Below are positions 17,703 through 62,850 of a DNA stretch of 64,000 bases, piece after piece; position 1 is the first letter of the stretch, and the number at the start of each line of letters is the position of its first letter. A program made the position numbers and the translations under genes. The notes below the pieces were generated by a model. The model was not told the origin of the DNA. It searched no databases and saw only the letters and a program-made list of their open reading frames with translations. Source of the DNA: Asaia bogorensis NBRC 16594 (lineage in GTDB: Bacteria > Pseudomonadota > Alphaproteobacteria > Acetobacterales > Acetobacteraceae). The stretch lies in the NCBI RefSeq assembly GCF_001547995.1, contig NZ_AP014690.1:2291001-2355000 (forward strand), in the 5' to 3' direction.

Positions 17703-17804
17703 CCCCGATAAGACGAAAGATGAAAGGAATACGGGCTGTCTAGGCCAAGATGGCCGTTGATGCAAGACTCGTGCATGGCAGGAAGCGTGATGCGTAACTT
17801 TTGA

Positions 17805-17821
17805 TTACACTCCCCGTGTAA
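17805..17821. promoter_or_regulatory. Inverted repeat between rimP and the AAA+ module
   Basis: TTACAC-TCCCC-GTGTAA is a perfect 6-bp inverted repeat with a 5-nt spacer, in the 193-bp divergent region between rimP (start 17673) and the gene starting at 17867. The size and placement fit an operator for a dimeric regulator, though no regulator can be named. It could also fold as a short hairpin. Confidence 0.4.
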
Positions 17822-17866
17822 CAGGGCTCTTGCAGTCATGGTTTTTATCCTGCCACAGTCGCAGCG

Positions 17867-18508
17867 ATGAACGATACGCCCGAGCCACAACTCAAGCCGC
17901 TCTCCCATGGGACAGTTGGCAGCGGCCATCACTCCCCTCGCGAGAGCGGCGGGTTGACCTCCAAGCTCGTCCTGGCGTCTGCCGTTGTCATGGCATGCAT
18001 GGGGGGTGCCTACTGGCAAAACACGGCTCATGGCGGCGTGACAGCGGCTCGCGCACCGCAAGCTTCAACCTCTTCGCTAGACCGTGAACCTCAGATCCGG
18101 GCAGATGCCAGACATCTGGGTGCACAGTTTGCCCTGATTGCCCCCGGGCAGGCTCCGTCAGCTCTGGCGCATTCAGGCTTCGATACCCAGCAGAGGGCAA
18201 ACATACTCGCCGCTGTGAAAAATCGCCGCATGCGGTTGGTGCGCATGCCTATCGCTCAGATAGCGGGGCTACCCGGCCAGTCTATTGCCATCACCTCGGG
18301 TGGCTTAACGCAACGACTCACTCTCAAACCCGAATTGCAGGCTGTGGTTCTACCCATCTATCTGGCTGGCGAGGTCACGATATCTCCCCTGACTCAGCCT
18401 CCAGCTGGGGGGCTGGAGACCGGCATACTTACGGCGCTTGGCGCTCAGGTTCTCCCGACCCTAGCCAGCCTTGATCAGCAGATTGTTCTGGACGTGATCG
18501 TACAATGA
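17867..18508 (+). CDS. Membrane-anchored protein of unknown family, first gene of AAA+ module
   Basis: I do not recognise this 213-residue protein. It has a short polar N-terminus (1-31), one transmembrane segment (about 32-51, LVLASAVVMACMGGAYW), a flexible linker, and a domain of about 120 residues that would be on the far side of the membrane. That domain is rich in short beta-strand-like stretches (RLVRMPIAQIAG, SIAITSGGLTQRLTL, AVVLPIYLAGEVTI). No signal peptidase site or lipobox is evident. ATG at 17867 has no strong ribosome site. Its TGA overlaps the ATG of the AAA+ gene (ATGA), which indicates a tight operon and probably a shared complex. Confidence 0.75.
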   Translation: MNDTPEPQLKPLSHGTVGSGHHSPRESGGLTSKLVLASAVVMACMGGAYWQNTAHGGVTAARAPQASTSSLDREPQIRADARHLGAQFALIAPGQAPSALAHSGFDTQQRANILAAVKNRRMRLVRMPIAQIAGLPGQSIAITSGGLTQRLTLKPELQAVVLPIYLAGEVTISPLTQPPAGGLETGILTALGAQVLPTLASLDQQIVLDVIVQ

Positions 18509-19773
18509 AAGCCCTGATGCCCGCCCTCAATCGCCTCATGCCCGTCATGATGGTGATTTTTCTGATCCTTGCGAGCATTCAGGCAGCTGTTTCGCTTCAC
18601 CTTTCGGGGGGAATGCTGCTTCATTTCCTCTCCTGGGCAAGGGACGCCTATCCTCCCATTGCCGGTCTCGCCGCCCTGCTCTCGATATCCGGCCTCCTCT
18701 ATGAGGTGCGCTCCACAAAACTGGCCCGCAAGGGGCTTCGCCGTCGCAAAGGTTTCGTTATGGATATTCTCGCCCGCCTGACAAACCGCGTTGCGCTCGA
18801 AGAGCTACTTGCCCAAGAGCAGAAGGAAGTCGCGATCAATGCCGAAGAATTGGCCGCCGGACTGCGCGCCAAGGTCGTCGGTCAGGATCAGGTTTGCGAG
18901 GATATTGCCCAGCAGTTGAGACGCCGTCTCGCTCTTACTATGCGTAACAAGCCGGTCGGAATCTTTCTCCTCGCCGGCCCTCCGGGCACGGGAAAAACCT
19001 ATCTGGCAAAGCAGATCGCCCGGCAGATGGACCGGCCCCTGCTTCATTTCGACATGACCCAGATGTCCAGCCCTCACGCTGCAACCATGCTCTTCGGCTC
19101 GCCAAAGGGATATGTAGGATCCGATAGTTTCGGCAAGCTCACGGGCGGCCTTCAGGAGAAGCCGGATGCGATTGTGTTGCTGGATGAGATCGAGAAAGCG
19201 CATCCAGACGTTTTCAAAAAATTCCTGACAGCATGGAATGACGGTCACGTGACCGAGGCCTCAACTGGCGCTCAGGTATCTACAACGCGCGCCATCTTCA
19301 TGCTCACCTCCAATATCGCCACAGAAGCACTGACCGAAATTGCCGATCGTCTTCATGACGACGCAGACAGGATGCGTGCGGAGTCGACGGAAGCCCTGCG
19401 CAAGGCCGGTTTTGCACCCGAAGTCCTGAACCGTCTGGATCGTATCTTTGTCTTCCGTCAGCTGCGCGACCTCGATCTTGCGCGGGTAGCGGCGCTGGAA
19501 ATCGAGGCAATGATCAAGGGTTATGGGCTTAATGTCGAAGCTGGCGGTATCGATGCCTACCTGCTCTTCCAACTCATGCAGCGTCAGCAGAAGTTGGGTG
19601 CCGGGGCCTCGGCACGTGATCTGGTTCGCTCGATCGAAGACATGGTCAGTGAAAGCCTGATCCTGGCGCGCCAGAATAATGCGAAGCTCGTTCGTCTCGT
19701 CATGAGCAACGACGGTGTCAAAGCCGAAATAGCTGACGACTCGGTCTCGCTCAATGCGCGACTGACACCCTGA
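18505..19773 (+). CDS. Membrane-anchored single-ring Clp/Hsp100-type AAA+ ATPase
   Basis: 422 residues. Two transmembrane segments (about 11-33 and 48-66) are followed by one AAA+ module of the ClpA/ClpB D2 type. Walker A GPPGTGKT is at 158-165, the pore loop KGYVG at 201-205, Walker B LLDEIEKAHPDV with D227/E228, sensor 1 LTSN at 267-270 and an arginine-finger-like NRLDRIFVF with R310. The Clp C-terminal small domain (about 325-395, with GAGASARDLVRSIED) follows. The pore loop suggests it threads protein substrates. There is no N-terminal Clp repeat domain, no D1 ring and no ClpP-docking loop that I can see, so it is neither ClpA, ClpB nor the type VI ClpV. Coupled to the first gene by a 4-nt overlap; the third gene starts 21 nt later. 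Confidence 0.88.
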   Translation: MKALMPALNRLMPVMMVIFLILASIQAAVSLHLSGGMLLHFLSWARDAYPPIAGLAALLSISGLLYEVRSTKLARKGLRRRKGFVMDILARLTNRVALEELLAQEQKEVAINAEELAAGLRAKVVGQDQVCEDIAQQLRRRLALTMRNKPVGIFLLAGPPGTGKTYLAKQIARQMDRPLLHFDMTQMSSPHAATMLFGSPKGYVGSDSFGKLTGGLQEKPDAIVLLDEIEKAHPDVFKKFLTAWNDGHVTEASTGAQVSTTRAIFMLTSNIATEALTEIADRLHDDADRMRAESTEALRKAGFAPEVLNRLDRIFVFRQLRDLDLARVAALEIEAMIKGYGLNVEAGGIDAYLLFQLMQRQQKLGAGASARDLVRSIEDMVSESLILARQNNAKLVRLVMSNDGVKAEIADDSVSLNARLTP

Positions 19774-19794
19774 ACCCCGCCGGAACGATAGTCA

Positions 19795-20751
19795 GTGTCA
19801 GCTTTCACCCGCTTGTGGCGCCGTGCCCCTGCATGGCGCCTCATGATCTATATCATGATCTTTTTCACGATCATGAGCCTCTTCTTCCCCTTGCCCTGGA
19901 TGCTTGCCCATGCGCCGTGGCTTCAGCGGCTGCCCGGCATGCAACCCCCGAATGGCGCTGCCACCGCATCCACTGCGAGGGATCAGGCCGTCAATAACGG
20001 GCAAGGCTCTCAGGCACAAGCAGGCGCGCCGGACGAGACCAATCGCCTGATGACACCCGATATCACTGCGTCACTTACAGGAACGATACCGTTCGGTGGG
20101 CATACATTGCCCCTGCCGGCCGGAGTCTGGCATCCGGTGCTCACCGGGCAATTCGGTCCGGGCGGCCTTATGCTGATCAATATTCTAGTGCGCACCGATC
20201 GTGGTGTTGTCACAGGCGTCATGATTGCACGGACAGCCACGGAGCAATTACCTCTCGATGTCGTTCAGTCAGCGGCCTCGCACTGTCACGACGATCGTAA
20301 TTATAGCGCCCATATCTATGCCGATCGGCCCGATGGTCGCAATGAATGCGCTTTTATCGCCAATGCCGTCATGGGGCCGAATGGTGCCATTTCGTCTGAT
20401 GAGCTGATTCAGCTTGCGTTCAAAAGACTAAGCGCTCTGGGCTTTCCCATGCCCTCCCTTTTTGTGGTCGCCAACTGGATTCTAAGCAGTGGTGCTACCG
20501 ATGCGACCAAGGGCAGCTCAGGCATCACCTATCTTCTTGCCCCCACCAAGACCGGCACGGTCCAGTTGCTGGCCCCCCTTCCCTATTGGGACAAAACGAC
20601 GTTGTCGCAGGTTCCTACAGCCGACGAATTCATACGAAAGACCGATCGCTGGTTCTCTCGCTGGGTGCCGCTCCTCCGGCAGGCCATGACGCATGATGCG
20701 GGTAGCCCGACATTTTCGCCGGACCTTGCCCACGACCCATCGGCTCCCTGA
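19795..20751 (+). CDS. Membrane-anchored protein of unknown family, third gene of AAA+ module
   Basis: I do not recognise this 318-residue protein. It has a basic N-terminus, one long hydrophobic segment (about 16-38, LMIYIMIFFTIMSLFF), a Gln/Ala/Gly-rich linker (about 45-85), and a globular extracytoplasmic domain of about 230 residues. The domain contains two cysteines (SHCHDD and NECAF, about 40 residues apart) that could form a disulfide. Start GTG at 19795 has GGAA about 11 nt upstream. It follows the AAA+ gene by 21 nt, on the same strand, so it is probably part of the same membrane complex. A GC-rich hairpin follows it. Confidence 0.72.
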   Translation: MSAFTRLWRRAPAWRLMIYIMIFFTIMSLFFPLPWMLAHAPWLQRLPGMQPPNGAATASTARDQAVNNGQGSQAQAGAPDETNRLMTPDITASLTGTIPFGGHTLPLPAGVWHPVLTGQFGPGGLMLINILVRTDRGVVTGVMIARTATEQLPLDVVQSAASHCHDDRNYSAHIYADRPDGRNECAFIANAVMGPNGAISSDELIQLAFKRLSALGFPMPSLFVVANWILSSGATDATKGSSGITYLLAPTKTGTVQLLAPLPYWDKTTLSQVPTADEFIRKTDRWFSRWVPLLRQAMTHDAGSPTFSPDLAHDPSAP

Positions 20752-20759
20752 GTCGTGCA

Positions 20760-20787
20760 GGCGGCGTGCCTTAAGAAGGACGCCGCC
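20760..20787 (+). terminator. Hairpin after the AAA+ module
   Basis: GGCGGCGT (20760-20767) pairs perfectly with ACGCCGCC (20780-20787) around a 12-nt loop, 9 nt after the stop of the third gene. No T-run follows, so termination strength is uncertain, but it marks the likely end of the operon. Confidence 0.45.
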
Positions 20788-21049
20788 TAAAGCGCGTCAA
20801 AGCCATCTGAGCATTGCCTGATCGAAACTGCTTTGGATTGAAGAGCGGGAAGGCAGGCGTTCGCATCTCGGCAGTGCCACATCATTTTTCGCTTCATATT
20901 GTCGCTGCGATCGCCACATTGATCCGCGAATACGCTTCTTAATCAGCACGCACACCAACATATCGCTCTCATATCGATCATATTTAGAAAATTTATTAAA
21001 GCTCAGGGCATTAGTGCGATACAAGTACAATCTATATTTGCATAACTAG
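20788..21049. other. AT-rich intergenic stretch, no gene seen
   Basis: About 260 bp of lower GC content than the surroundings, between the AAA+ module and the broken membrane-protein gene. A minus-strand frame (20797-21030) is open but has no recognisable family and biased, implausible composition, so I do not call it. No repeat or tRNA was seen. Confidence 0.5.
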
Positions 21050-21616
21050 TCCAAAGACTCACTCAACACCTTGCGCGAATCCTACCTGGCGCAATGCTTG
21101 TCGGCCATGCCGCTCGGCGGCCTCATCTCCTAGTCATCATTGGCACTGGCGGGCGTCTGGATGGGTGACAAGCTACCGCTCTTCCCCGTTTTCATGGCTG
21201 CGGCCATTCCGTTTCCCTTGGCTCTATTAATCGACAAACTGCGAGGTCAGGTTGGATTGAGAGTGGCGAACCGGCACGATCCGATCACTCAACTTTTCAT
21301 GCGTTTCATCACCGTCACCGGTGTTTTGGTTCCCTTTGCCATCATTGCAGCGCGCACGGCTCACGACCCGGCTATACTGTTTCTGGGAATCACCATTTTT
21401 TCTGGTATTGTCTGGGGACCTCACGGGTGGGGTGCAAATGATCCTGCTGGCTTCAGACATTTTTTACTGCGTAGCGTTCTAGCCTATCTCGCCTATCTGC
21501 TCGCGCGCGCCGCCGTGCGTGACGCGGCCATCGCAGGCGCCGCCGCTCTCAGCTATCTTTACGCAATCGCCGCCATGCGGAGACCCTATGAGGCGAACAC
21601 TCGGGCCGAGATCTGA
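21050..21616 (+). pseudogene. Broken membrane-protein gene (possibly DUF7010-like) with in-frame TAG
   Basis: The continuous reading frame from 21050 encodes a short helical N-terminus (LRESYLAQCLSAMPLGGLIS), then a TAG at 21131-21133, then four or five membrane helices running to 21616. The segments on both sides of the TAG look like one protein: a polar amphipathic start followed by LALAGVWMGDKLPLF, FPLALLIDKLRG and WGPHGWGA. From memory this resembles the DUF7010-type membrane family, which I could not verify. The upstream part also lacks an ATG (TTG at 21071 is the only candidate). A shorter product from TTG 21140 (158 residues) is possible but would lack the N-terminal helix. The likely reading is a recent nonsense mutation. 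Confidence 0.55.
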
Positions 21617-21750
21617 TCGCATTGCGCCCACTCGCAACCGCCATGAAGGGAAGGAATGCGTCAGCTGGACAAGAACCCCGCTCTGCACAATCTTGCGGCG
21701 AACGACGCACTTACCTGTGCATCGGACTCAGAAGTTTTGTAACAGAGTTT

Positions 21751-34942: not shown

Positions 34943-35223
34943 GAGAGGAGCCCGTAGCACTTTCACAACTTGCGTAAAAGCCTCCCTGCGCCGCACCGCA
35001 GGATTACGCCTCATTCCTGCCCTGTTTATAGGCTCACTTGCCACACAGGAGACAGACAGGTGCCTGTTTCACGGTGATGATGCGGTGCAAAAAACCTCGC
35101 CCCGCCTCAGGATTTCGTGATCAGGCCGGTCTGTGATACACACGTCGTTCGCCGCCCTGGCTTGTCGGGGCAATCGTTCGTTCGGAGTAACTGGGCAAAA
35201 GGCTGCACGCTGTCGTGACATCT

Positions 35224-35928
35224 ATGAAAAGCAGAAAACGCGCATACAGTTCCACGGAACGCTGCAAGAAGCGTCTCCGCGCTCGAATCGGTGGCATCGC
35301 TCTGCTTTGCACAGTGCTCGCGCCAAAGCACGGCGCACATGCCGCGACGACCTCCCAGCCGGACCATCTGGTCGAAGCCCCCGCCGATCATGCGCCCTGG
35401 GCTTCTTCAGTGCGGCTTGCCCTCGCCAAGCGGGCCCATCGCATTGCTCTTGCGAGCCATAATGTCCTCGCCTGGTCGGAACATGGCGTCGCCAGCTGGT
35501 ACGGTCGTCGCCTTGCCGGCCATCGCACAAGCAGCGGTGAGCGCCTAGACAGCCATGCCCTAACCGCAGCTCATCCGACCCTGCCCATGGGATCCAAGGT
35601 TCTCGTCCAGAACGAGGACACGGGACGCTCTGTTATCGTCACGGTGAATGATCGCGGACCGTTCAACAGCCGCATCATCGATCTCTCCCATGCAGCCGCC
35701 GCAGAGATCGGCATGTTGGGTAGCGGTACAGCCCATGTGAAGATTGCTCCAATCCCGGCCGGCGCGCCGATCAAGGAAGACGAGCCGATCGAAGTGGCCG
35801 AGGCCGAGGCCGACGACACGAATGCCCAGGCGATGGACGCTGTGACCCCGGTCATGACACCGCATGAGGCTAAAACGGCCACAGCCTCGCACGCGCCGGT
35901 TCATCACGCCCGCCATCACCATAAGTAA
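35224..35928 (+). CDS. rlpA: RlpA-like septal ring lytic transglycosylase
   Basis: 234 residues from ATG 35224 (a GTG at 35215 is also in frame). A basic N-terminus leads to a signal peptide (about residues 20-40, ending AHA). The double-psi beta-barrel follows (about 85-180) with the RlpA hallmarks GVASWYGRRLAGHRTSSGE, LTAAHPTLPMGSKVLVQN and VTVNDRGPF. The C-terminus is an acidic then His-rich tail with no SPOR domain. Known RlpA proteins cleave denuded glycan strands at the septum. No lipobox is seen, so it is probably soluble in the periplasm. Followed by a strong terminator. Confidence 0.9.
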   Translation: MKSRKRAYSSTERCKKRLRARIGGIALLCTVLAPKHGAHAATTSQPDHLVEAPADHAPWASSVRLALAKRAHRIALASHNVLAWSEHGVASWYGRRLAGHRTSSGERLDSHALTAAHPTLPMGSKVLVQNEDTGRSVIVTVNDRGPFNSRIIDLSHAAAAEIGMLGSGTAHVKIAPIPAGAPIKEDEPIEVAEAEADDTNAQAMDAVTPVMTPHEAKTATASHAPVHHARHHHK

Positions 35929-35998
35929 GAGGCCGCGGGGCCACTGATCTGCCTGATGCGCCTCTGAGCAGAAAGTCATTGGCTTACGATTTCAATAG

Positions 35999-36029
35999 AA
36001 AAAGGCACCGGTATGATCCGGTGCCTTTT
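35999..36029. terminator. Bidirectional intrinsic terminator after rlpA
   Basis: GGCACCGG (36004-36011), loop TATGAT, CCGGTGCC (36018-36025), then TTTT; an A-run precedes the left arm, so it can end transcription from rlpA (+) and from the brkB-like gene (-) that converge here. Confidence 0.85.
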
Positions 36030-36064
36030 CTGTTTTCAGGCCCTCGCGCGCCTACGCCCGCTCT

Positions 36065-37258
36065 CTAATCCCCGCTGTGTACCGCCGCAGGCTCAGATTC
36101 CTCCTGCACACGGGTCATACCGGGCATCTTGGGGTTAAAGCCTCGCATCCGGTCCTCGAGCCCGGCATTCAGCTCCGCACCGAAAAGCACGACATAGGTG
36201 CCAACGAAGAACCACATCATGATGGCAGCGACGGCGCCCAGGGGACCGTAGGTTGAGCCGTAGCTCGCGAAGTGGCTCACATAATAGGAGAAGGCGAGCG
36301 AGGTCAGAACCCAGAGGAGCGTTGCGACCAGCGAGCCTGGCACGATCCAGCGCCAGTCCGGTTTGTCGCGGCAGGGGCCATAGCGGAACAGCAACGTCAC
36401 CGCCATGAACACAAAAAGCAGCATGAGAGCCGGCGCACCGAAATGGACGATGTAGCGCGTGCTGTAGCTCATGAGGTAATCCGTGAGATACAGGATTTCC
36501 GGCGGCAGGTTGCGCAGACCGAACCTGTTGAGCAGGTCCGGCAGGTAATCGATCAGCGCCGGAAACGCCACCATCAGGGCCAGCGTAAGGCAGGCGCCCA
36601 CGACCGCGCCGAACGTCACCCCCAGAGCGAGAAACTGAAACCGGAAGAAACCGCGTGTTTCCAGAACGTCATAAGCGAGGTTGAGCGCAGACAGCACCGA
36701 TTTCGTGCTTGCAGACGCGGACCACAAAGCGATCACGGTGGAGAAAATCAGGCCGACAGTCAGTGACGCATGAGGCTGGGCGATCAGCGTATGGATCTGT
36801 GAGGCAATCAGTTCGAACGCAGTCGGCGGAAGCAGATTACGCAGCACATTGAGCTGAGGCTCGACCGTCTGCAGATCGAAAATCAGCCCATAGACTGAAA
36901 TCAAAGAGGATATGGCCGGGAAAAGCGAAAGCGTGGCGTAGAAGGCGCAGCCGGCAGCCGAGAGACTGGTCTGGCTCGACCCCAGATTGCTGAATGTCTG
37001 GCGCATGACCAGTTTCCAGCCACCCAGCGGCATGTGGATGGGGCTTCGTGCTCCCGTGCCGGGTGCTTCGCGACCCAAGGCCTCCTCCGGGATATCGACT
37101 TCCCCTACTGAGACGTCCTCCTCCCGCTTGTCCGGGGTCGCGTTGCGCGTTGCAGTCGTATCAATCTCGATCGGTCGCGCCTCCCCAAGGGCACCGCCCG
37201 ATTCTGCAGCAGCTCGCGACAACTGAGTTTTCTGGGTCGGTGACTCGTCCACAAACAC
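36065..37258 (-). CDS. YihY/BrkB-family inner membrane protein
   Basis: A 397-residue integral membrane protein of the YihY/virulence factor BrkB family (formerly mis-called RNase BN). The N-terminal 75 residues are polar and acidic. A pre-helix (GWKLVMRQTFSNL) and about six membrane helices follow, with family motifs LSAAGCAFYATLSLFPAISSLI-like, WSASASTKSVLSALNLAYDV and YGSTYGPLGAVAAIMMWFFV. The molecular role of the family is not settled. It converges with rlpA at the terminator and is divergent from the ornithine decarboxylase leader. Confidence 0.9.
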   Translation of the reverse strand: MFVDESPTQKTQLSRAAAESGGALGEARPIEIDTTATRNATPDKREEDVSVGEVDIPEEALGREAPGTGARSPIHMPLGGWKLVMRQTFSNLGSSQTSLSAAGCAFYATLSLFPAISSLISVYGLIFDLQTVEPQLNVLRNLLPPTAFELIASQIHTLIAQPHASLTVGLIFSTVIALWSASASTKSVLSALNLAYDVLETRGFFRFQFLALGVTFGAVVGACLTLALMVAFPALIDYLPDLLNRFGLRNLPPEILYLTDYLMSYSTRYIVHFGAPALMLLFVFMAVTLLFRYGPCRDKPDWRWIVPGSLVATLLWVLTSLAFSYYVSHFASYGSTYGPLGAVAAIMMWFFVGTYVVLFGAELNAGLEDRMRGFNPKMPGMTRVQEESEPAAVHSGD

Positions 37259-37463
37259 TTCCTTCTACCCAAGCAGCCCCGTTCCGCCTGATGGACACAG
37301 TATATGTCACCCGGCGCGCGGCACAGATTTACTGTCGGAATGACGCCCCGGCACGAGAAACGTTGCAGGCCCACCGACGTTGAAACGCGACAACTGCGGC
37401 CCCCATGTGAAAAATACAAGTCCGACCCATTTTTTAGTTGCAACAGGGGGGCTTTGGTCCCAT
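37259..37463. promoter_or_regulatory. Divergent promoter region before the decarboxylase leader
   Basis: A 205-bp stretch between the brkB-like gene and the leader ORF. A possible -35 TTGCAA (37438-37443) lies 17 bp before CATATG, but the -10 matches poorly, so I do not assign a definite promoter. No gene seen. Confidence 0.35.
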
Positions 37464-37652
37464 ATGCGCCGCACGCAGCAACGCACGTGCCACTGGCCCT
37501 CTGTAGGTTACGCAACGACGTCAAGCGTTCTGGCAATCGGGCTGATCCTGCTCACTTTCACGAGCACTCAGCCTCGTCCTGATCGCCGGTCCGTTCGACC
37601 GTTTCGCAACAATTCCGCCCGTGCAGTTCCGGGCGGATTTCGGGAGGAGTGA
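37464..37652 (+). CDS. Candidate leader ORF upstream of ornithine decarboxylase
   Basis: A 62-codon frame begins ATG CGC CGC at 37464 and ends TGA at 37650-37652, just 3 nt before the ATG of the decarboxylase. Its stop lies within the decarboxylase ribosome-binding region (GGGAGGAG). The peptide is Arg-rich at both ends (MRRTQQRTCHW... and RPDRRSVRPFRNN) with a hydrophobic middle (SVLAIGLILLTF). It has no family I recognise. Coupling of its translation to the downstream gene, as in polyamine- or ornithine-sensing leaders, is a hypothesis from position. Confidence 0.35.
   Translation: MRRTQQRTCHWPSVGYATTSSVLAIGLILLTFTSTQPRPDRRSVRPFRNNSARAVPGGFREE
37587..37640 (+). promoter_or_regulatory. Leader hairpins before ornithine decarboxylase (speF-like candidate)
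   Basis: A perfect 8-bp stem, TCCGCCCG (37614-37621) / CGGGCGGA (37630-37637) with an 8-nt loop, ends 6 nt before the ribosome-binding sequence GGGAGGAG. A smaller stem CGGTC/GACCG (37587-37591/37597-37601) precedes it. Alphaproteobacterial ornithine decarboxylase genes are known to carry the structured speF leader; whether this is one needs a covariance search. Confidence 0.45.
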
Positions 37653-46358: not shown

Positions 46359-46391
46359 AGAACCCAAGCATAGCTGGCTACTGGCTCGTGC

Positions 46392-46432
46392 GAACATGGC
46401 TTTTTCGACAATCGCAAAAGCCATGTTCTTTT
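46392..46432. terminator. Bidirectional terminator between S10 peptidase and LysR genes
   Basis: A perfect 13-bp stem, GAACATGGCTTTT (46392-46404) / AAAAGCCATGTTC (46416-46428), with T-runs on both strands (TTTT at 46429-46432). It overlaps the stop of the LysR gene. Confidence 0.85.
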
Positions 46433-47381
46433 ATGCGACTGGCATCTCTGTGCCTCCCATTTGCTTGAACACGGAGATAGCCTCCTCGACATATGTTTTT
46501 TGCGGAAAAGCACCCAGCCAGGCGAGGCCACTTTCCAGCCTCATTTCCTCCATCGTTTCATAGTCACTCACACTTATGAACCCTATATGGTCGGCTGCGC
46601 TTGAGAGCGCGTAAGTCGGAATAATACCCCACCCCCCGCTTGCAAGAAGAAGTTCTTTCACACCCGAAGCGGAATTATATTCGATAAGATTCGGCGGTGG
46701 ATCTAGATCGCGTGAATAGAGTACAGCATCGAATCTATCGCGTATCGCCATACCCTTAAATGGCAGGATCCATAGATCATTTTGATAGGAAGGCCACTCC
46801 TCAACGATTTCTCTTACACTTCGCGCACCATGTTGCGATACTGCAATGCAGCCTGCCTGAAGCATGGCAAAGAAAGAAATGTGACTCTGCTTCTCCACCT
46901 GGAATGAATCGATGAAAATCATATCCAGTTCACGCCTATTTAGCATGTCAACAAGATGACTTCGTTCTCGATGAATTACGCGAATAACGCGTTGAGGGTC
47001 ATTCCGCTTGAGGGCCGATATACCCTCCATAACCCTTGCCTCCAGCCCCATAGCCTGTAAGCCGATTGTAAGGGGCCCCACCTCAATACCCTTGTATTCG
47101 TTTACCGTTCTTACGAGCCTATCCAGTTCGTGGCCGATAGAGCGACTTGATTCGACAATACGCAGGCAGATCTCAGTTGGCTCCATACCATGGTGAGAAC
47201 GTATAAAAAGCTGCACACCGAGAATACGCTCGATCTCCAGACATGCTTTGGAGAGTGCCGCAGGTGTTACATTCAGCCTTGCCGCAGCCCCCACAAGTGA
47301 CTGCATTTCGCAAATAACATCGATGAAATGCAGATATCTGAGCTTGATCTTCCTTATGATCTGCTCATTCAGACTTTTCAC
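46431..47381 (-). CDS. LysR-type transcriptional regulator
   Basis: 316 residues from GTG 47381, chosen because AGGAAG lies 6-7 nt upstream and the N-terminus (VKSLNEQIIRKIKLRYLHFID) then starts the winged helix normally; the frame continues upstream without support. The HTH is in LVGAAARLNVTPAALSKACLEIERILGVQLF (about residues 24-54). The effector domain occupies residues about 95-300 (GPLTIGLQAMGLEARV onward). It is divergent from the Hint-domain gene 680 bp away, which it might control. Effector unknown. Confidence 0.85.
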   Translation of the reverse strand: MKSLNEQIIRKIKLRYLHFIDVICEMQSLVGAAARLNVTPAALSKACLEIERILGVQLFIRSHHGMEPTEICLRIVESSRSIGHELDRLVRTVNEYKGIEVGPLTIGLQAMGLEARVMEGISALKRNDPQRVIRVIHRERSHLVDMLNRRELDMIFIDSFQVEKQSHISFFAMLQAGCIAVSQHGARSVREIVEEWPSYQNDLWILPFKGMAIRDRFDAVLYSRDLDPPPNLIEYNSASGVKELLLASGGWGIIPTYALSSAADHIGFISVSDYETMEEMRLESGLAWLGAFPQKTYVEEAISVFKQMGGTEMPVA

Positions 47382-48059
47382 ACCAAACTTCCTTAATTTT
47401 GCATCCTTGATGCATCGACCAAAACCAAGAGCGTGAAGGCCAATAGCCGTTCTTCGTCCCGCCAATGTGTTGCGAACCTTCTGACAGGTCGTTGACTCGT
47501 TTCGCGAAACCACACCTGCTCGTGCGTCACGATGCCTCATCCGGAAAGTGACATCGCCCAGTGCATTCCAGACATGCCGTTAACGCAGATCACGTGCCCG
47601 TGACTGCATTACAAACTAGGCTTTCTTCGCTTGGCCGCTGCTCCAGCCAGTCGGAAACACAACTGGCAAAACTTGCGGTCTTCGACATCAAGCGACTGGA
47701 CAAACCACGATAAATATTCCCCAAATCTCGGGGCATTTCGTGCATTTTATCAATAAGCACCTCGGTCTCGGAAACATAAGGTCAATACTCAACACAGATC
47801 GCTCAAGAGGTAATGGCATCTTTTTTGTCAATGATTTTGCAACCTCATTAACCTGCGTTTTATTGCACAGTATTTCTACAACCAGCGCAATATACGGGGG
47901 TCAACTTTCAGTTTATGCCCTTGAACAAGATTTCGGTTTCTTGCGCCAATATTTTTAGTCAGATGAAAGATATTGAGTTAACGTCATGCAAACGAGGGAT
48001 GACGAAAGCTCTTTCATGAAGAATAAAACTCGTACCATCGCAGCAAGTCAGAAATATAG
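47382..48059. other. Divergent intergenic region (LysR / Hint gene)
   Basis: About 680 bp, AT-richer than average. A small palindrome TCACG-TGCC-CGTGA (47590-47603) is the only regular element I noticed. Open frames within it (for example 47740-47958) have no recognisable content. Likely holds promoters and operators for the two divergent genes. Confidence 0.45.
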
Positions 48060-50129
48060 ATGAAGTACTACGCGACGCCTCGAAGCTATGCACTGACGAT
48101 GCAGTGCGGCCGGTATGCACCTTCTATATTAAACGATCCACGCGTTGTGCCCGGGTTTCTGGAGACGCAAGATATCATGCAGACCGATACAGTTCAGAAG
48201 TCGACCGCCGAGGCAGCGAGCACAGACGCAACGACCAACAATATCGGCATCTGGGAGGGCTACCTCTCAACAGGTCCCGCAGACCTCGCGAGCAGCGGTA
48301 CGACCTCCGGCGGTCTTTCTGGCAGTGACAAGGGTAAGTTGGCTGTCAATTACAACGATAAGAGCTTCACCTACGAGGCTGCCGATGGCACCCTCATGAA
48401 AGGCACGATCGATAAAACCTTTTCTCTCGTGGGGGCAGAAAACACTTCGCTCGGTGGTGGGACACTTGCCTTTACCGATAGCAATGGAAAACTTTGGATC
48501 CTGTCCCAGAATACTCCCCTCACAAATTCCCGGTGGACTTATTACGCTGCCGGTGACGGCACTCTCCTTGTCGTAACACCTAGCGCAGCTGGAAAGCCCA
48601 CTCAGATGGCTGGAACTGCGTCATCCTACCTCTGGTACGTTGAGCAAAAATACGCCTTACAGCCGCCCCCGGTTCGTATCATGAAATGGTCGGTCTATCT
48701 CAGTGGCGGCCCCACACAGCTATCGGGCTCGCGTCAAACTGGTTCGCTCAGTAATGGCCCACAAGGTACGCTCTATATCGATTATCTAAATCGAAGCTTT
48801 ACCTATATTGTCGAGGGGAGTGACCCCGTAACCGGAAAGATCGTCAGGACATTCCCGATACAAGGAGGGTCAGGAATGTCGATTGGTGCAGGCACTTTGG
48901 CGTTCACCGACGAGAAGGGGGAGCTTTGGATTTTCACGCAGAACCAGCCGATAGGTAGCGGACATTGGACTTATATACCGGGCGCAAGCACCGATGCACT
49001 CAATCTAGTCACACAGGGTGCAAGCAGCACAACTAACTTACAAGCCGCCGGTTCCGGATCTGCCGACCTATGGCGCGAAGAACTCAAATACGGCACCCCC
49101 GTGCCGGAAGTCTGTTACCTACCCGGTACGCTTATCGCCACACCGCAGGGAGATAAACCTGTCGAAATTCTTAAGCCAGGCGATGAGGTGCTCGTCTTGC
49201 GCGCGGGGGTAGTCGTTGCTGAAAAAATCATTTGGACGGGGTCCGGTTTCTGTTCGACGCGCAGTACACGCCACAAAGATCTGGCCGGGCACCCGGTACG
49301 CATTCATGCTGGCGCGCTGGGCGATAATTTGCCTTCAAAAGACCTAGTCGTCACCTCCGAACATTGCCTCTACCTCGATGGAGCACTGATCCCTGCACGT
49401 ATGCTGGTTAACGACTACTCTATTACCTATGAAGATACGCTTTCATTCTACGAATACCACCATTTCGAGCTGGAAACGCATGGACTGATCTTCGCCAATA
49501 ATACGTTGAGCGAGAGTTATCTGGATACAGGCAATCGGGTAATTTTCGGACTTCAGGCTTGGGCATCAGACACACCCGCCTCGCGGCACAAGATGCGCTC
49601 GTGGGCAAAGGACGCTGCCGCCCCCTTGCAGACAAGCCGTGAATTTGTTGAGCCTATCTGGCTCAGGCTGGCATTGCATGCAGATCAGATCTCTGCTCCC
49701 AACACACAGCCCCAGCCAGAAGAAGATATCTTCCTCGAAATGCAGGGTGGGCGGAAGGTGCGGTATCTTCGCAAGAATGCAGAGGGCTATGTTTTCATGG
49801 TCGAGCCGAAAGGCCAGGACATCTTCCTCCGCATAAACACACATAGGCCCTGTGACAGGATCGGCCCTTTTGTGGATGACCGACGTGAACTCGGATTACT
49901 AGTTGGAGGGATCAAGGTGTTCACTTCAAAAACATGCATCGACATCGATCCCAACAGCATTACCGGAGTCCAAAATGGCTGGCATAGTATTGAGTCTCCA
50001 ACGCAGCGCTGGACAAGGGACAAGGCGCTCATTCCACTCAGCAAAGCAGATAGTGGCGAGCCACTCGTTATCTTCGTCTCGGCAGCTCCCAATGAGGCTA
50101 GGCAGAATTTCTCGTCATATATGCATTGA
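48060..50129 (+). CDS. Large Hint-domain protein with two N-terminal repeats
   Basis: 689 residues from ATG 48060, or about 650 from ATG 48177 (neither has an ideal ribosome site). Two tandem copies of a beta-rich unit of about 125-130 residues come first (about 62-205 and 210-350); both contain a GxGTLAFTDxxGxLWI core and end near SxDLWxxExKY. A Hint_2-type domain follows: the catalytic Cys is C352 (CYLPGTLIATPQG), block B is TSEHCLYLDGALIPAR, and the end is ANNTLSESYLDTGNRV, where the usual final His-Asn is not kept. A unique C-terminal region of about 190 residues follows. The domain family suggests self-cleavage, but the target of the reaction is unknown. No signal peptide is obvious. Confidence 0.8.
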   Translation: MKYYATPRSYALTMQCGRYAPSILNDPRVVPGFLETQDIMQTDTVQKSTAEAASTDATTNNIGIWEGYLSTGPADLASSGTTSGGLSGSDKGKLAVNYNDKSFTYEAADGTLMKGTIDKTFSLVGAENTSLGGGTLAFTDSNGKLWILSQNTPLTNSRWTYYAAGDGTLLVVTPSAAGKPTQMAGTASSYLWYVEQKYALQPPPVRIMKWSVYLSGGPTQLSGSRQTGSLSNGPQGTLYIDYLNRSFTYIVEGSDPVTGKIVRTFPIQGGSGMSIGAGTLAFTDEKGELWIFTQNQPIGSGHWTYIPGASTDALNLVTQGASSTTNLQAAGSGSADLWREELKYGTPVPEVCYLPGTLIATPQGDKPVEILKPGDEVLVLRAGVVVAEKIIWTGSGFCSTRSTRHKDLAGHPVRIHAGALGDNLPSKDLVVTSEHCLYLDGALIPARMLVNDYSITYEDTLSFYEYHHFELETHGLIFANNTLSESYLDTGNRVIFGLQAWASDTPASRHKMRSWAKDAAAPLQTSREFVEPIWLRLALHADQISAPNTQPQPEEDIFLEMQGGRKVRYLRKNAEGYVFMVEPKGQDIFLRINTHRPCDRIGPFVDDRRELGLLVGGIKVFTSKTCIDIDPNSITGVQNGWHSIESPTQRWTRDKALIPLSKADSGEPLVIFVSAAPNEARQNFSSYMH

Positions 50130-50173
50130 ATGAGAACGTCGGCCCGTTTCTTTCAATTTCCTAAGCACTTGCT

Positions 50174-50206
50174 CCAGAAAGGTGCCCCGACAAGGCGCCT
50201 TTCTGG
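50174..50206. terminator. Bidirectional terminator between Hint and aldehyde dehydrogenase genes
   Basis: CCAGAAAGGTGCC (50174-50186), loop CCGACAA, GGCGCCTTTCTGG (50194-50206): a 13-bp stem with one G-T pair. It sits between convergent genes; the T-rich flank (TTGTT) is on the plus side. Confidence 0.7.
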
Positions 50207-50238
50207 TTGTTAAGACTATCGCTGCATGACGACGATCC

Positions 50239-53943: not shown

Positions 53944-56418
53944 TCAGAACCCGGTCGAGAGTGAAACCAGAGCCGCGAAGTTGCCACCAACAAGATAGAT
54001 CGGTGAGCCAGCTTTGGTCTGATTGCCGTAAATCCCTGTGCGGCTCTGGGCGCTGGTGACGAAACTGGCTGGTGCGGAACGATAGATGTTGTTGCCGATA
54101 TTGACCAGATTGAGCTGGATTTTCGGGCCGTTCAAATGCGCGACATGAGGCAGGCGATAACCGAGCGTGATGTCTGACACGACATAGCCCGGCATGCGCT
54201 GGTCATTCATGAACGTGGAATATTGCGAGCTGATATAACGCAGGCTGAAATTCCCGAAAAACTGCCTGTTGTCGTCATAGGCAAGACCGACGGACGCCGT
54301 CACATGCGGTGTGGCCACCATCGTCTTGCCCGCCGTTGGCAGATAATCGATGACAGACTGACCCGCTGCGTTGGTCGCCGAGACAGGCAGATTATTATCC
54401 GTTGTCGCGTGCAGGTACTGGGCCGAGACATAAGGGCTGAAATGATGCCAGGGCTTGAGGCCCAGCTCCCCCTGAATACCGCGGATCGTCTCGCCACCCA
54501 CATTGATCGGCATGGAAACCAGCGTATTGGTGCCAGGAATATAGGAGGTGGAGCTTACCTGATGACTGGTCAGGTTCATGTTGAATGCTGAAACCTGAAA
54601 ATGGATCAGCGTGCCGTTATGACGATAACCGATTTCCTCACCAATACCGTACTCGCCCTTCAGGCTGCCTGGCTGTGATGTGGCCCCAACTGAGTTGGGA
54701 TCGAAAATCTGGCTATAGGCCTGCACCGAAGCCGGCGCACGGAATGAGGTCGTGCCATTGATATAGATCTGGTCCTTGGACGTCAGCGCATAGCTGATGG
54801 CCACCTGTGGCAGAGGTGCGAAGTAATTGCGCACTGTCTTGTAGGGATCGGCTCCGGGTACGTCATTCGTCCCCTGACGTGAGACCATGACCGTACGAAA
54901 GCCCGCGCTCAGTGTCAGCTTGTCATTGAGCAGTTTGAGCGTGTCGGCAATGAACAGCGCGTTGATCTGCTGCATGAAATTGAGGTTGTAGCCGCTCAGC
55001 AGATCACCGCCCGGCACACGGATGCCATAGGCTCCATAGGAATTGGCAGCCTTGCCCGAGAAATCCACGGTCGCAAAGGTCGAGTGCTCCTCATGGGTTG
55101 CATAGGAATACCAGTAACCGCCAGATAGCGTGTTGTGCCCGGAGGTCCAGTCCAGAGACGTATTGATGGCACCGACTTTCTGGTTCCACGGATCGACCGC
55201 AACCGTCGTGATCTTGCCGTTGGTGACGTAAGGCTGGTTCAGATTGCCATAGACCTGCGTCCCGAAAGTACCACCGGATGCCGGAATATTCTCACCACCT
55301 ACAGCGGGGCCGAACTGGTGAACATAATAAGGCGTGACACTCAGCTTGAGCCCGCGTGCCAGCGTGAAATGCATGGGCACCACGACATCCTCCGAGTTCA
55401 GATTGCTCAACTGAAGCTTGTAGTAGCTGGCATCTCCTGGCGTGTAGTGATCGCTATAGGTCAGCCCCTCGCCCCATTGCTTCCACTGGGCCGCCGTTGG
55501 CGACCGAAAAGGCGTCTGCTCCTGTTTGTTGAAGCCGAAAATGGCGCTGATCGAGTTGCCATCACCCCATTCCTTCACGAACTTCGCATCCACATGATAG
55601 CGTTTCAGCCCGCCGGGACCACGCCAGTTATTGTTCGATTGGTGCGAAAACGATACGAAACCACGAATGCCAGTCTGGCCAATATCACCCGTATCCAGAC
55701 GGAGGAATTCCTTGTTGGCGCTCTTGTTGCCTCCCATCAGATTGATGAAGCCACCATATTTGTGCGACGGGTTGAGCGCTGTCGCTGAAATCTGCCCACC
55801 AACCGCGTTGAATGTCGGCGCATTGAGATCGGGCGAGCCTTGTGAAACCGTCACGGAGCCCAGATTTTCCGTATCGACAAGCATCGCCGTGTAAGGCTCG
55901 TAATTGATCGGATCAGCCAGCGGTGCACCTTCAAACAGGTAACCGATCTGGCTCTGGTTCATGCCACGCATGGTGATATTGTCACCCGCCGTCGCAAGCG
56001 GGCTTTGATTAGCATAGACCACGCCCGGCAGATTGGCGATCATCGACGAGATATTGCCCGTGGGCGCCTGCTTGGCAATGAAGTCGCGCGTCACCCCGCT
56101 CTGTGAGCGCGGCGCAGTCTGCTTTGGCATCAACCCGCCGCCCGGCGTGGTATTGGTCGTCCCATCCGCATGACGGCTGGATGATCTGACCGAGATTTCC
56201 TCTGCCTGCGGGTTGGCCCCCAGAACAGACCCCTCAGTCGCACTCCCCGCCCGGCGATGCGCAGCGCCTGCCTTATGCGCCGGAGCGGCAACCGGCGCCT
56301 TGCCGGACTGTCCGCTTCCATCGGGCGTTTCCGCTGCCTGTGCGGCGATTGCGCCAACCACCGAGTTCATTGCGATAGCGGAACAGAAAACAAGGAGATC
56401 ACGTCTTAGATGGCGCAT
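53944..56418 (-). CDS. TonB-dependent receptor (probable chitooligosaccharide/GlcNAc uptake)
   Basis: 824 residues from ATG 56418, with GGAG upstream. Signal peptide (about 1-29, ending AQA), a Pro/Ala-rich stretch, then the plug domain (about 90-190: TRDFIAKQAPTGNISSMIANLPGVVYANQ, with ITMRGMNQSQIGYLFEGAPLADP) and a long beta-barrel of repeated aromatic-rich strands to a C-terminal Phe. The TonB box is not clear. Position inside the GlcNAc cluster, divergent from nagB, suggests it imports GlcNAc-containing oligosaccharides through the outer membrane. The ligand is inferred. Confidence 0.9.
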   Translation of the reverse strand: MRHLRRDLLVFCSAIAMNSVVGAIAAQAAETPDGSGQSGKAPVAAPAHKAGAAHRRAGSATEGSVLGANPQAEEISVRSSSRHADGTTNTTPGGGLMPKQTAPRSQSGVTRDFIAKQAPTGNISSMIANLPGVVYANQSPLATAGDNITMRGMNQSQIGYLFEGAPLADPINYEPYTAMLVDTENLGSVTVSQGSPDLNAPTFNAVGGQISATALNPSHKYGGFINLMGGNKSANKEFLRLDTGDIGQTGIRGFVSFSHQSNNNWRGPGGLKRYHVDAKFVKEWGDGNSISAIFGFNKQEQTPFRSPTAAQWKQWGEGLTYSDHYTPGDASYYKLQLSNLNSEDVVVPMHFTLARGLKLSVTPYYVHQFGPAVGGENIPASGGTFGTQVYGNLNQPYVTNGKITTVAVDPWNQKVGAINTSLDWTSGHNTLSGGYWYSYATHEEHSTFATVDFSGKAANSYGAYGIRVPGGDLLSGYNLNFMQQINALFIADTLKLLNDKLTLSAGFRTVMVSRQGTNDVPGADPYKTVRNYFAPLPQVAISYALTSKDQIYINGTTSFRAPASVQAYSQIFDPNSVGATSQPGSLKGEYGIGEEIGYRHNGTLIHFQVSAFNMNLTSHQVSSTSYIPGTNTLVSMPINVGGETIRGIQGELGLKPWHHFSPYVSAQYLHATTDNNLPVSATNAAGQSVIDYLPTAGKTMVATPHVTASVGLAYDDNRQFFGNFSLRYISSQYSTFMNDQRMPGYVVSDITLGYRLPHVAHLNGPKIQLNLVNIGNNIYRSAPASFVTSAQSRTGIYGNQTKAGSPIYLVGGNFAALVSLSTGF

Positions 56419-56745
56419 GGTCCACTCCCGTCTGCGTGGAGGATTCAAAATAAATCGGCCGCGATGGGAAGAACAGTTTGTTGTCCGTCCAGATCGTTCC
56501 GCGTTCCTGCAAAACGTTAGACGGCTGATTTTCGCCCTGCAATTGTTTATTGGAAAAACTAAGTGATTTGCCAGTTTTCGGCAAAATTAATGCCAGAAAA
56601 CCAGCATTACGTCACGTTTGAGTGTCGATCCCGCGATTTTCACTTAATTTATGTCGATAAACAAAGGGGGAGGTCTTATCAGGAGATGGAATCGGTATTG
56701 CCCCGGATGTATCAGGGGCTTCACAACACAGGATCATGACCGTCC
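56419..56745. promoter_or_regulatory. Divergent regulatory region of the TonB receptor and nagB
   Basis: 327 bp of AT-rich sequence between the divergent genes. AAAATAAAT at 56447-56455 matches a word in the permease promoter (62809-62817), and TTTTCGGCAAAA (about 56567-56578) is a short inverted repeat. These may be ROK repressor sites, but no consensus was tested. Confidence 0.4.
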
Positions 56746-57513
56746 ATGCGCCTTATTATTATGCCAGAGTCCAGCTCCGCCATGCGACTCGCCGCAGCCG
56801 AAATTGCCTCAGTGATGACCTCCTGCGCATCGCCTGTGCTCGGCCTGGCGACAGGGCGGACCATGGAAGGCGTCTATGGGGATCTGGTCCGACTACACCA
56901 GAAACAGGGGCTCGATTTTTCAAGCACGACCAGCTTCAATCTTGATGAGTATGTTGGCCTCTCCGCCGATGACCGCAGGTCCTATCATTACTACATGAAC
57001 GATCTGCTTTTTCGTCATGTCAATATTTCCCAGACAAACGTACACCTTCCAAATGGGGTCGCCGCTGATCTTGCGCAGGAATGTGCGGATTACGAGCAGG
57101 CGATACGCAATGCAGGCGGGATTGACCTGCAATTACTCGGCATCGGCGATACAGGGCATATCGGCTTCAACGAACCGCCCTCGCCATTCGACACGCGCAC
57201 GCGCTGTGTCACGCTCAATGAGCGCACCCGCGAGCAGAACGCCGCCATGTTCGGTGGTGACCCTCAAAAGGTGCCTGATCGGGCCCTGACGATGGGCGTC
57301 GGGACCATTCTCGAAGCGAAACATCTTCTGCTTCTTGCGCTTGGTTCTGCCAAGGCAGATATCGTGGCGTGCGCCCTTGAAGGTGATGTCACGCCGCAGG
57401 TCAGCGCGTCGGCCATTCGGCTTCATGACCATTGCACGGTCATTCTGGACGAGGCCAGCGCCTCTGCCCTGACAGAGCAGACGAGACGCGATGCAGACTT
57501 CCGGCCGCGCTGA
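56746..57513 (+). CDS. nagB: Glucosamine-6-phosphate deaminase
   Basis: 255 residues. Converts glucosamine-6-phosphate to fructose-6-phosphate plus ammonia. LGLATGRTMEGVY binds phosphate, SFNLDEYVGL carries D67/E68, and LGIGDTGHIGFNEP has H138 and E143. The residue before Gly-His is Thr136, where most family members have Asp or Asn. The protein is short, without the allosteric C-terminus of E. coli NagB. Divergent from the TonB receptor. Its transcript ends at a strong terminator shared with the GH20 gene. Confidence 0.93.
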   Translation: MRLIIMPESSSAMRLAAAEIASVMTSCASPVLGLATGRTMEGVYGDLVRLHQKQGLDFSSTTSFNLDEYVGLSADDRRSYHYYMNDLLFRHVNISQTNVHLPNGVAADLAQECADYEQAIRNAGGIDLQLLGIGDTGHIGFNEPPSPFDTRTRCVTLNERTREQNAAMFGGDPQKVPDRALTMGVGTILEAKHLLLLALGSAKADIVACALEGDVTPQVSASAIRLHDHCTVILDEASASALTEQTRRDADFRPR

Positions 57514-57631
57514 AAATCCCGTGTGCTGCGTCGCATTTTTAAGCCTGTTTTACGGGTAGGCGTCGTGGCGCGGCGTATCCTAGGGGCGCTGCCCCTTCCA
57601 TATCAGTGCCCAGGATATTCTCCTGAATGGG

Positions 57632-57670
57632 AAAGGGGCTCCGGAATAATCAACCGGAGCCCCTTTTTTT
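57632..57670. terminator. Bidirectional terminator between nagB and the GH20 gene
   Basis: AAAGGGGCTCCGG (57632-57644), loop AATAATCAA, CCGGAGCCCC (57654-57663), then a 7-T run (57664-57670). The left A-run and the symmetrical arms let it stop both converging transcripts; it reaches the GH20 stop codon. Confidence 0.88.
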
Positions 57671-59862
57671 CAGTCGGTGCTGGCGATCAGCGCCTTTATG
57701 CCAGGCACAATAGCAATCAACAGCCCTCCCGGGGGCTGGTTCGTATGGTTCGAGGCTTCGTGGTCAGCGCTCGCGGCGTAAGCGGCATCCTGCTCGGCAA
57801 GGAGAGCCTCGGCATGCTCATGCCAGTCCTTGCTTTTCCTGCCCGGCTGCATGGCGTCTAGGCCAAGCTGTGACAACGCCGCGATCTGAGCCGAAACGGG
57901 CTTCACCTCATCAATGACTGGCTGCGCGGGTAAAGCCTGAAACGCCTTGTCGTTGCCGATATAGCGTAAAAGATGACTCTGCACCGCAGCGATAACGCTA
58001 CGATCTCCTGCCTTGTAGCGCGCGGCAAGCGCGTTGAATTCGTTCCCCTCAAAGCTGTCCGGTCCCGCAATTGCCGCAGGGGAACTCAGGATTTCATCAC
58101 CCTTGTGGCTCGCAAGCCGGTTGATTGCATAATTGCGCACCGGCACGGTAATCGCGACCAGCTGCGTCAATGGCGTGATATTCTGCGGGGTCAGACGGGC
58201 AATCATCCGGGCCTGATGATCACTCGCCTGCAAGCCGAATGTCTCGAGCATATTCATGACCAGCGGAAGCCGATCTGTAAGGGCCTGCGGGTCTCTTACC
58301 GACTGATCGGACCAGTAACGCTCGGCAAGGGCGGCGGAACGCGGCCAAAGACGCGCATCGACCATTTCATCAGATACGACTTCCGTCCAGAGCGGTGCCT
58401 CACCACCCAGCACCAGTTTCTTCTGAGCCTCGTCCAGCGGTGGCGCATTGGGATCGAGCGTAAAGGCATCGTCAAGCGGACGAGGTTTCTGCCCCGGCAG
58501 ATTGGGTGCGAGACCATCGGCACGCGTATCGAACGGGTCGACGGCATAATGTGTGGTCGAGGGATTGAGCAGATCGAGGTAATATCCCGATGACACGACC
58601 ACCGGGTGACCGACACGCGTGGCGGACCCAATCCATTTGGAGCCGCGCCAGGCCTCGACAACGACGTTTTTGGGTATGGGGGCCTCGCTTACCTCATCCC
58701 AGCCCATCATGATCTTGCCATCGGCAGCGAGGAGCTTCTCGATCTCTGCGGTAAAGGCCGCCTGCATGGCAGGCGCATCCTTGTAGCCGTGCGCCTGCAT
58801 ATAGGCCGTGATCTGCGGGTTGGTTGTCCACTGGCTGGATACCACCTCATCACCCCCGGTATGAAAATAGCGATCCGGGAAAAGCCGTGCCATTTCGGCA
58901 AACAGGATACGGGCGAATTCGAGCACTTTGGGGCTCGTCGGGTCCATTGCCGGCGTGTTGAGGTTAGGGTGCTTCGCGCAATGGGTCGTTGTCTCGCCAT
59001 TACCCGAAGCGACATCGCAATCCTTCACCCAGTCCTTCATCGTCACGACGGGCTGCTGCGCGGCAAGCTCGGGATAGGCCGCCAGAATGGAAAGCGTATG
59101 CCCCGGCACGTCGAATTCCGGCACGATCCGTATGCCCCGGTCGGCAGCATAGGCGATGATCTCGCGTATCTGATCCTGCGTGTAGTAACGGCTATGCCCG
59201 CCGAGTTCCTGAAGGCGTGGCAGGCGCTTGCTCTCCACCCGGAAGCCGGTTCCATCGCTCAGATGCCAGTGCATGACATTGAGTTTGGTCAGTTCCATCG
59301 CATCCAGCTGGCGTTTGATGGTATCGGTGGACTGGAAATGACGCGAAACGTCGAACATGAGACCGCGCCATTTGAAGCGTGGCGCATCGACAATACGCCC
59401 CTGCGCGATCACCGGTGCAGCGCCTCTCGTGTCCAGCATCTGCAGCAGCGTGGCAAAACCATGGATTACACCAGCAGGGCCATCGGCAGTCAGCCTGATA
59501 CCCGTGGCAGAAATATCCAGCTTGTAGGCCTCATGCGCGTCGAGCGTCAGATAGGCAGGGTCTCGCCCTACGTCGATCGTGAACGTGGGCCCATGACCCG
59601 TCGCGGGGCGAACGCCAGCCGCTGCGAGACGTGCGCTGAAGCGCGCAGCAGCCCGTTTCAGCAAGGGGGTGGGCGCGTGTGACCAGTGAATATCCGGCAG
59701 CGCCGTAAGCGCAAGGCTCTGCGCATCCAGTGCAACGCTGGCAGGCTGGGGCATGAAAATCGGGGTCAATGGCGCAGCCAAGGCAGGTCGGATCGCGGCA
59801 CAGCCAGCCAGCAATACACCAAGCGCAACCCCGGAGTGGATTACCCTTTTCGGGAGAAACAT
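57670..59862 (-). CDS. Beta-N-acetylhexosaminidase, GH20, lipoprotein
   Basis: 730 residues from ATG 59862. The N-terminus has a lipobox (LLAGC, Cys at about 21), so it is probably anchored in the outer membrane. Domains: GH20b N-terminal domain (about 40-160), catalytic TIM barrel (about 165-520) and a C-terminal helical domain of about 180 residues. The barrel contains WRGLMFDVSRHF, KLNVMHWHLSDGTGFR, FDVPGHT and the catalytic pair in FHTGGDEV (D338/E339). The enzyme releases terminal GlcNAc from chitobiose-type or glycoprotein oligosaccharides. Located 27 nt after the cutC-like gene on the same strand. Confidence 0.94.
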   Translation of the reverse strand: MFLPKRVIHSGVALGVLLAGCAAIRPALAAPLTPIFMPQPASVALDAQSLALTALPDIHWSHAPTPLLKRAAARFSARLAAAGVRPATGHGPTFTIDVGRDPAYLTLDAHEAYKLDISATGIRLTADGPAGVIHGFATLLQMLDTRGAAPVIAQGRIVDAPRFKWRGLMFDVSRHFQSTDTIKRQLDAMELTKLNVMHWHLSDGTGFRVESKRLPRLQELGGHSRYYTQDQIREIIAYAADRGIRIVPEFDVPGHTLSILAAYPELAAQQPVVTMKDWVKDCDVASGNGETTTHCAKHPNLNTPAMDPTSPKVLEFARILFAEMARLFPDRYFHTGGDEVVSSQWTTNPQITAYMQAHGYKDAPAMQAAFTAEIEKLLAADGKIMMGWDEVSEAPIPKNVVVEAWRGSKWIGSATRVGHPVVVSSGYYLDLLNPSTTHYAVDPFDTRADGLAPNLPGQKPRPLDDAFTLDPNAPPLDEAQKKLVLGGEAPLWTEVVSDEMVDARLWPRSAALAERYWSDQSVRDPQALTDRLPLVMNMLETFGLQASDHQARMIARLTPQNITPLTQLVAITVPVRNYAINRLASHKGDEILSSPAAIAGPDSFEGNEFNALAARYKAGDRSVIAAVQSHLLRYIGNDKAFQALPAQPVIDEVKPVSAQIAALSQLGLDAMQPGRKSKDWHEHAEALLAEQDAAYAASADHEASNHTNQPPGGLLIAIVPGIKALIASTD

Positions 59863-60693: not shown

Positions 60694-60871
60694 GTGTCAT
60701 CTCGCTTCCCCTTCCGGTCGCCTCGCAGTAGACTGACCCGCCCACCCCGCACGCCTAGAACCCGGCAAGGAGACGTGCAGCCCTCGAAAGACCAAGCACA
60801 GGGAACATGCCCGTCGCAACCCGAAGCCCTCAGGCGAAGCCGCTCACAAACACCCTTGAGGCGCAGCGCGA

Positions 60872-62817: not shown

Positions 62818-62850
62818 AGTTTCTCGTTCAAGTTGAGGATCTACCGAAAA

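Follow-up and report, generated by a model that had tools for sequence, protein, structure and literature searches.

A conserved three-gene unit of acetic acid bacteria with a predicted membrane-anchored Clp-type ATPase

A sequence-only reading of a 64-kb stretch of the complete 3,198,265-bp chromosome of Asaia bogorensis NBRC 16594 (positions 2,291,001-2,355,000; "the window" below) picked out three adjacent genes, here called g1, g2 and g3. On our best reading, the three genes form a single functional unit in acetic acid bacteria, almost wholly restricted to Acetobacteraceae. The genes stay together across relatives, and g1 is lost where the ATPase encoded by g2 has lost its motifs. The trio may be a single-ring Clp-type motor that is anchored in the membrane and faces the cytoplasm, together with two partner proteins predicted to lie on the periplasmic side; in our judgment, the odds for this are even. 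The genes lie as follows (lengths in amino acids, aa; TM, transmembrane).

17867..18508, + strand: g1, 213 aa; N-terminus, weak hydrophobic segment (aa 30-48), linker and outer domain
18505..19773, + strand: g2, 422 aa; two TM helices and one ClpB-D2-like AAA+ unit
19795..20751, + strand: g3, 318 aa; conserved cytosolic tail, one TM helix, disordered linker and outer domain

The coordinates first read, with a 4-nucleotide (nt) overlap of g1 and g2 and a 21-nt gap before g3, were exact; g3 starts with GTG. The three genes are really coding, because the ratio of nonsynonymous to synonymous substitution rates (dN/dS) was low in 12 pairs: 0.00-0.13 for g2, 0.01-0.12 for g3 and 0.04-0.56 for g1, where the pair at 0.56 probably contains an open reading frame (ORF) whose start is set too far upstream. 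Selection in these pairs is purifying rather than diversifying. Across orthologues g2 is strongly conserved, whereas g1 and g3 diverge, and the g1 profile does not match that of g3.

The survey of named loci covered the best 80 of 135 from acetic acid bacteria, belonging to Asaia, Swaminathania, Acidomonas, Brytella, Gluconacetobacter, Acetobacter, Gluconobacter, Neokomagataea, Ameyamaea, Novacetimonas and Komagataeibacter. Profile matches to g1, g2 and g3 followed one another on one strand and in one order in 79 of these 80. The exception is L076, where g3 reaches the contig end, and in two of the 79 the draft assembly shows damage (g3 in two ORFs in L041, a short g2 in L049). Wherever the stretch of a named locus includes rimP, that gene is upstream and divergent (79/79). 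In four members (L118-L121) the trio lies elsewhere than beside rimP, and its surroundings differ from the window and among the four; in all, the trio was seen in five different contexts. Among 150 sampled family genomes, g2 was present in 34 (E at most 1e-45), and g3 accompanied it in every one, in pieces in G126. g1 was matched in 31 of the 34, only in part in G101, and a 32nd match was marginal. Six further g3 matches comprised distant outer-domain relatives (G011, G063, G076, G081), one by a contig edge (G049) and one by a degenerate g2 (G070). Three complete, small-genome family members (G040, G122, G066) had no match for the unit. The earlier reading had counted conserved synteny as support, and had held that their frequent separation, or a known family for g1 or g3, would point to a known or accidental neighborhood. 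Neither appeared, as the genes rarely separate and no named sequence family in Pfam or NCBIfam claims g1 or g3.

Outside the family, the best 40 of 1871 plasmid records with a match included one close g2 relative, a Microvirga plasmid protein with 49% identity. Its neighbors are mostly hypothetical. Its locus also has a g3 profile match, which by eye is a short downstream ORF with the tail of g3. The remaining plasmid matches in those 40 were at most 36% identical, and the three examined, proteins of 960-968 aa, adjoin Hsp20 or HdeD-type genes. A tblastn search for g3 on plasmids gave no match. In 385 genomes of the class (E 1e-68) and 378 of the phylum (E 1e-62), a strict g2 profile, with cut-offs that could miss degenerate forms, matched no genome other than the family members G000 and G056. 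The g1 profile matched 3 of 367 class genomes, one marginally (8.9e-4), and viral contigs gave 15 generic AAA matches.

The most telling evidence for a functional link comes from loci in which the ATPase has decayed. We scored the g2 motifs in 121 loci, which were not deduplicated and include some genomes twice. Walker A, Walker B and the pore loop were intact in 116 Acetobacteraceae loci (with Phe for Tyr in L027), and each of the 116 has a g1 match. In L115, L116, L117 and L165, the pore loop is lost, and both Walker B and the last part of Walker A are altered; none of the four has a g1 match, and all four keep g3. These loci have no room for g1, because rimP lies only 200-280 bp upstream of g2, and a whole-genome search at E 1e-4 found no g1 elsewhere in their genomes. 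The nusA tree places L115 as sister to the intact L122, and a single change suffices in 0% of 200 bootstrap trees; therefore, at least two events are needed. L116 is a long branch in this tree, probably from a split nusA. The joint loss of g1 and the ATPase motifs suggests that g1 belongs with the g2 motor. Since g3 is kept beside an inactive-looking g2, g3 seems tied to the g2 scaffold and g1 to ATP turnover. Two cases weigh against this: genome G101 (L167) has intact g2 motifs yet only a partial g1, and the Microvirga g2 relative is intact without g1. The coupled loss, together with the recurrence of the same trio in five contexts and in 79 of 80 named loci, nevertheless makes an accidental neighborhood of three unrelated genes very improbable, even though inheritance as a block is likely from physical linkage by itself and a mirror-tree test of the trio gave values hardly above the control.

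The reading of g2 as two TM helices followed by a ClpB-D2-like AAA+ unit with complete motifs held up, with hydropathy, motif scoring and the ClpB and AAA_2 profiles in agreement. The following features were located.

18535..18591, + strand: TM1 (aa 11-29), mean hydropathy 2.39
18652..18708, + strand: TM2 (aa 50-68), mean hydropathy 1.43, followed by a stretch of net charge +7
18976..18999, + strand: Walker A, GPPGTGKT (aa 158-165), by motif scoring
19105..19122, + strand: pore loop, KGYVGS (aa 201-206), by motif scoring
19174..19188, + strand: Walker B, VLLDE (aa 224-228), by motif scoring
19303..19314, + strand: sensor 1, LTSN (aa 267-270), by motif scoring
19429..19443, + strand: arginine-finger region, NRLDR (aa 309-313), by motif scoring
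19609..19629, + strand: sensor 2 region, SARDLVR (aa 369-375), by motif scoring

Of the 26 further sequences in alignment A3, 24 have a TM2 hydropathy above 1.43, and the inter-helix loop is short (20 residues). Because the positive stretch comes after the second hydrophobic segment, the ATPase domain should face the cytoplasm. With its Clp-type core of Walker A, Walker B, GYVG pore loop and sensors, g2 falls within the Clp/Hsp100 AAA+ superfamily, and by these motifs it should act like an unfoldase. Its best profile matches are to the half of ClpB and ClpA that forms the second ring. PDB sequence profiles yielded no meaningful match.

Judged by profile and motif tests, g2 is not ClpB, ClpA, ClpV or FtsH. 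It shares Walker A and B, the GYVG pore loop and the sensors with the second ring of ClpB/Hsp104 and with ClpA and ClpC. However, the closest match, NCBIfam ClpB (8e-50), covers only profile positions 533-849 and scores 170 bits against a cut-off of 1232, so that g2 is no ClpB equivalog, and two TM helices stand in front of its core. An ATPase of the ClpAP or ClpCP proteases was likewise rejected: the VGF stretch of ClpE, presumably the ClpP-docking loop, has no counterpart in one printed alignment inspected by eye, in agreement with the docking loop having been called absent. FtsH has two N-terminal TM helices before a cytoplasmic AAA+ ring, as g2 is predicted to have. It differs in that g2 has no detected protease domain (no zinc protease family was among the best 25 Pfam matches), a 20-residue inter-helix loop and outer domains on separate proteins; the FtsH profile matched residues 150-178 only, at 1e-4 and 21 bits against a cut-off of 600. 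Torsin, a lumenal ATPase, is comparable as a single-ring member of the Clp family with membrane partners, and its Pfam model just passes (27.9 bits, cut-off 27). However, AAA_2 fits g2 far better (3e-36, 125 bits), and g2 is predicted to be cytoplasmic with a GYVG pore loop. A literature search, judged from titles and the beginnings of abstracts, found no published description of the trio. PMC2241609 lists GOX hypothetical proteins unique to Acetobacteraceae.

ClpV (TssH), a double-ring Clp-family ATPase, serves an envelope machine, and by analogy with its role in type VI secretion the ring could be a motor that moves an exported polymer. A Clp-type ring that sits at the membrane and has envelope partners would suit such a role, and ClpV is among the g2 profile matches (5e-42). 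We consider it quite improbable, since ClpV scores below ClpB and ClpA, the TssH profile stays far under its cut-off (144 bits against 885), and flanks read by eye revealed no type VI or other secretion genes beside the unit. A possible link to conjugation or secretion was discarded; one TrbI match (E 0.053) turned up in 1 of 60 g1 members.

The partner proteins are less readily placed. Neither g1 nor g3 matched Pfam, NCBIfam, PADLOC or PHROG at the limits used, and their orthologues gave only scattered weak Pfam matches (best E 0.026 for 60 g1 and 0.019 for 50 g3 sequences). The single TM helix first assigned to g1 stands in part: a hydrophobic segment is present at aa 30-48, but with a hydropathy of 1.61 and no AlphaFold helix before residue 93, the anchor is the weakest call. 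The g1 outer domain (aa 81-213) is beta-rich with a conserved C-terminal Q; structural matching to known beta-sandwich families gave no clear family, which does not make the fold new. For g3, two parts stand out.

19795..19839, + strand: N-terminal tail (aa 1-15), with L7, W8, R10, A11, W14 and R15 invariant in 50 of 50 sequences
20074..20703, + strand: outer domain (aa 94-303), Mog1/PsbP-like predicted fold with invariant cysteines C164 and C185

The structure prediction of this outer domain is confident, and its fold matches include Mog1, PsbP, CyanoP, TplEi, Tsi3 and SciW at 4-13% identity. By sequence, g3 matched no Mog1/PsbP-like protein, and the TM anchor and conserved cytosolic tail set it apart from them. 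The outer domain is an unnamed domain present in several alphaproteobacterial families. It recurs in tandem copies (L157:6729-9169, L152:6177-8301, L163:2261-4719), and at L154:5671-7053 a similar domain is fused to a part weakly related to ClpP (NCBIfam E 7e-4, 19.7 bits against a cut-off of 120). The fold also bears on an alternative that we regard as unlikely, though the least so of those considered: that the unit is an assembly factor for one envelope complex, such as a membrane dehydrogenase or oxidase, with g2 a MoxR- or Bcs1-like remodeller and g3 a PsbP-like assembly subunit. The acetic acid bacterial family is known for its membrane dehydrogenases, and the near restriction of the unit to it would fit, as would the lack of a protease and a very conserved g2 beside divergent g1 and g3. 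However, g2 matches the Clp D2 family rather than MoxR, and the unannotated flanks of L118-L121, inspected by eye, include no recognizable client gene.

Within Asaia, the module has been exchanged as a block.

17772..21685, no strand: block replaced relative to A. bogorensis GD-01; nucleotide identity 95-97% in the flanks and about 45-79% inside

Identity to GD-01 (L040, L193-L196) is 95-97% up to 17771 and again from 21686. Synonymous divergence (dS) from GD-01 is 0.14-0.19 for nusA, rimP and the transporter, 1.7 for g1 and 1.9 for g3; it was not computable for g2. Nine Asaia and Swaminathania loci fall into two types, and this division appears in 100% of 200 bootstrap trees for each of g1, g2 and g3 but in 0% for nusA. 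The entire block has therefore been replaced at least once, which linkage by itself could account for. The idea that the swap is unique in the window was weakened: 37 of its 128 500-bp bins have fewer than 450 bases aligned at 90% identity to GD-01, and the module accounts for 9 of them. Identity falls to 68-88% at 35000-37500, 56000-58000 and 60000-63500, with surroundings at about 96%. At 46360-50237, about 3.9 kb stand where GD-01 has 65 bp between the same neighbors; this insert holds a 689-aa ORF (48060-50129, + strand), possibly a surface protein, with a Ser/Gly/Thr-rich start. Inside the exchanged block, a 158-aa membrane protein (21140-21616), weakly DUF7010-like (24.8 bits, below the cut-off of 27), is matched in few Asaia loci and is not conserved with the trio. 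No notable repeats flank the module, and promoter and terminator patterns around it are no more frequent than in shuffled sequence. The earlier reading recognized none of the flanking proteins, but inspection by eye identifies rimP, nusA, infB, pnp, aconitase and an amino-acid ABC transporter among them.

The exchange could also speak for an antiphage or conflict system, a membrane-bound AAA+ device pressed to change alleles. PMC11514479 describes Dodola and PDC-M37-type defense candidates with a ClpB-like AAA+ core. The PADLOC models PDC-M37B (8e-24) and DolB (5e-23) match the g2 AAA core, and the g3 fold matches include the immunity proteins TplEi and Tsi3. However, these models fit g2 worse than ClpB does, g1 and g3 lack PADLOC and PHROG matches, the trio is under purifying selection and keeps a constant site next to rimP, and further divergent blocks lie within the same 64 kb. 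We therefore find a conflict system improbable.

For the membrane-anchored motor, the following picture may be drawn. The g2 protein would form a hexamer beneath the membrane, with g3 beside its TM hairpin through the invariant LWxRAxxWR tail and the TM segment, as an envelope-side receptor or scaffold. g1 may be needed only during ATP turnover, as a coupling factor or client. Threading through the pore loop would exert a pull on membrane proteins or exported ones, so that they are extracted, unfolded or assembled, presumably by a motor that works without a built-in protease; the direction of pulling and the clients are likewise conjectural. The ring, g1 and g3 had been proposed to form one complex: the genes do belong together and g1 is lost with the motifs, while the complex, the hexamer and the threading stay predictions. 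We only tentatively propose that the trio is a previously undescribed envelope machine, an inner-membrane single-ring Clp motor with two dedicated outer partners acting on membrane or periplasmic proteins, g1 serving ATP turnover and g3 the scaffold, which decayed at least twice to a motor-less scaffold that was kept.

The periplasm has no ATP, and it is a standing question where bacteria get the energy for work on envelope proteins. A Clp-type ring fixed in the membrane together with dedicated outer partners would bear on it. Natural relatives that have jointly lost the motor motifs and g1 offer a genetic system, in culturable bacteria, that may separate motor from scaffold function.
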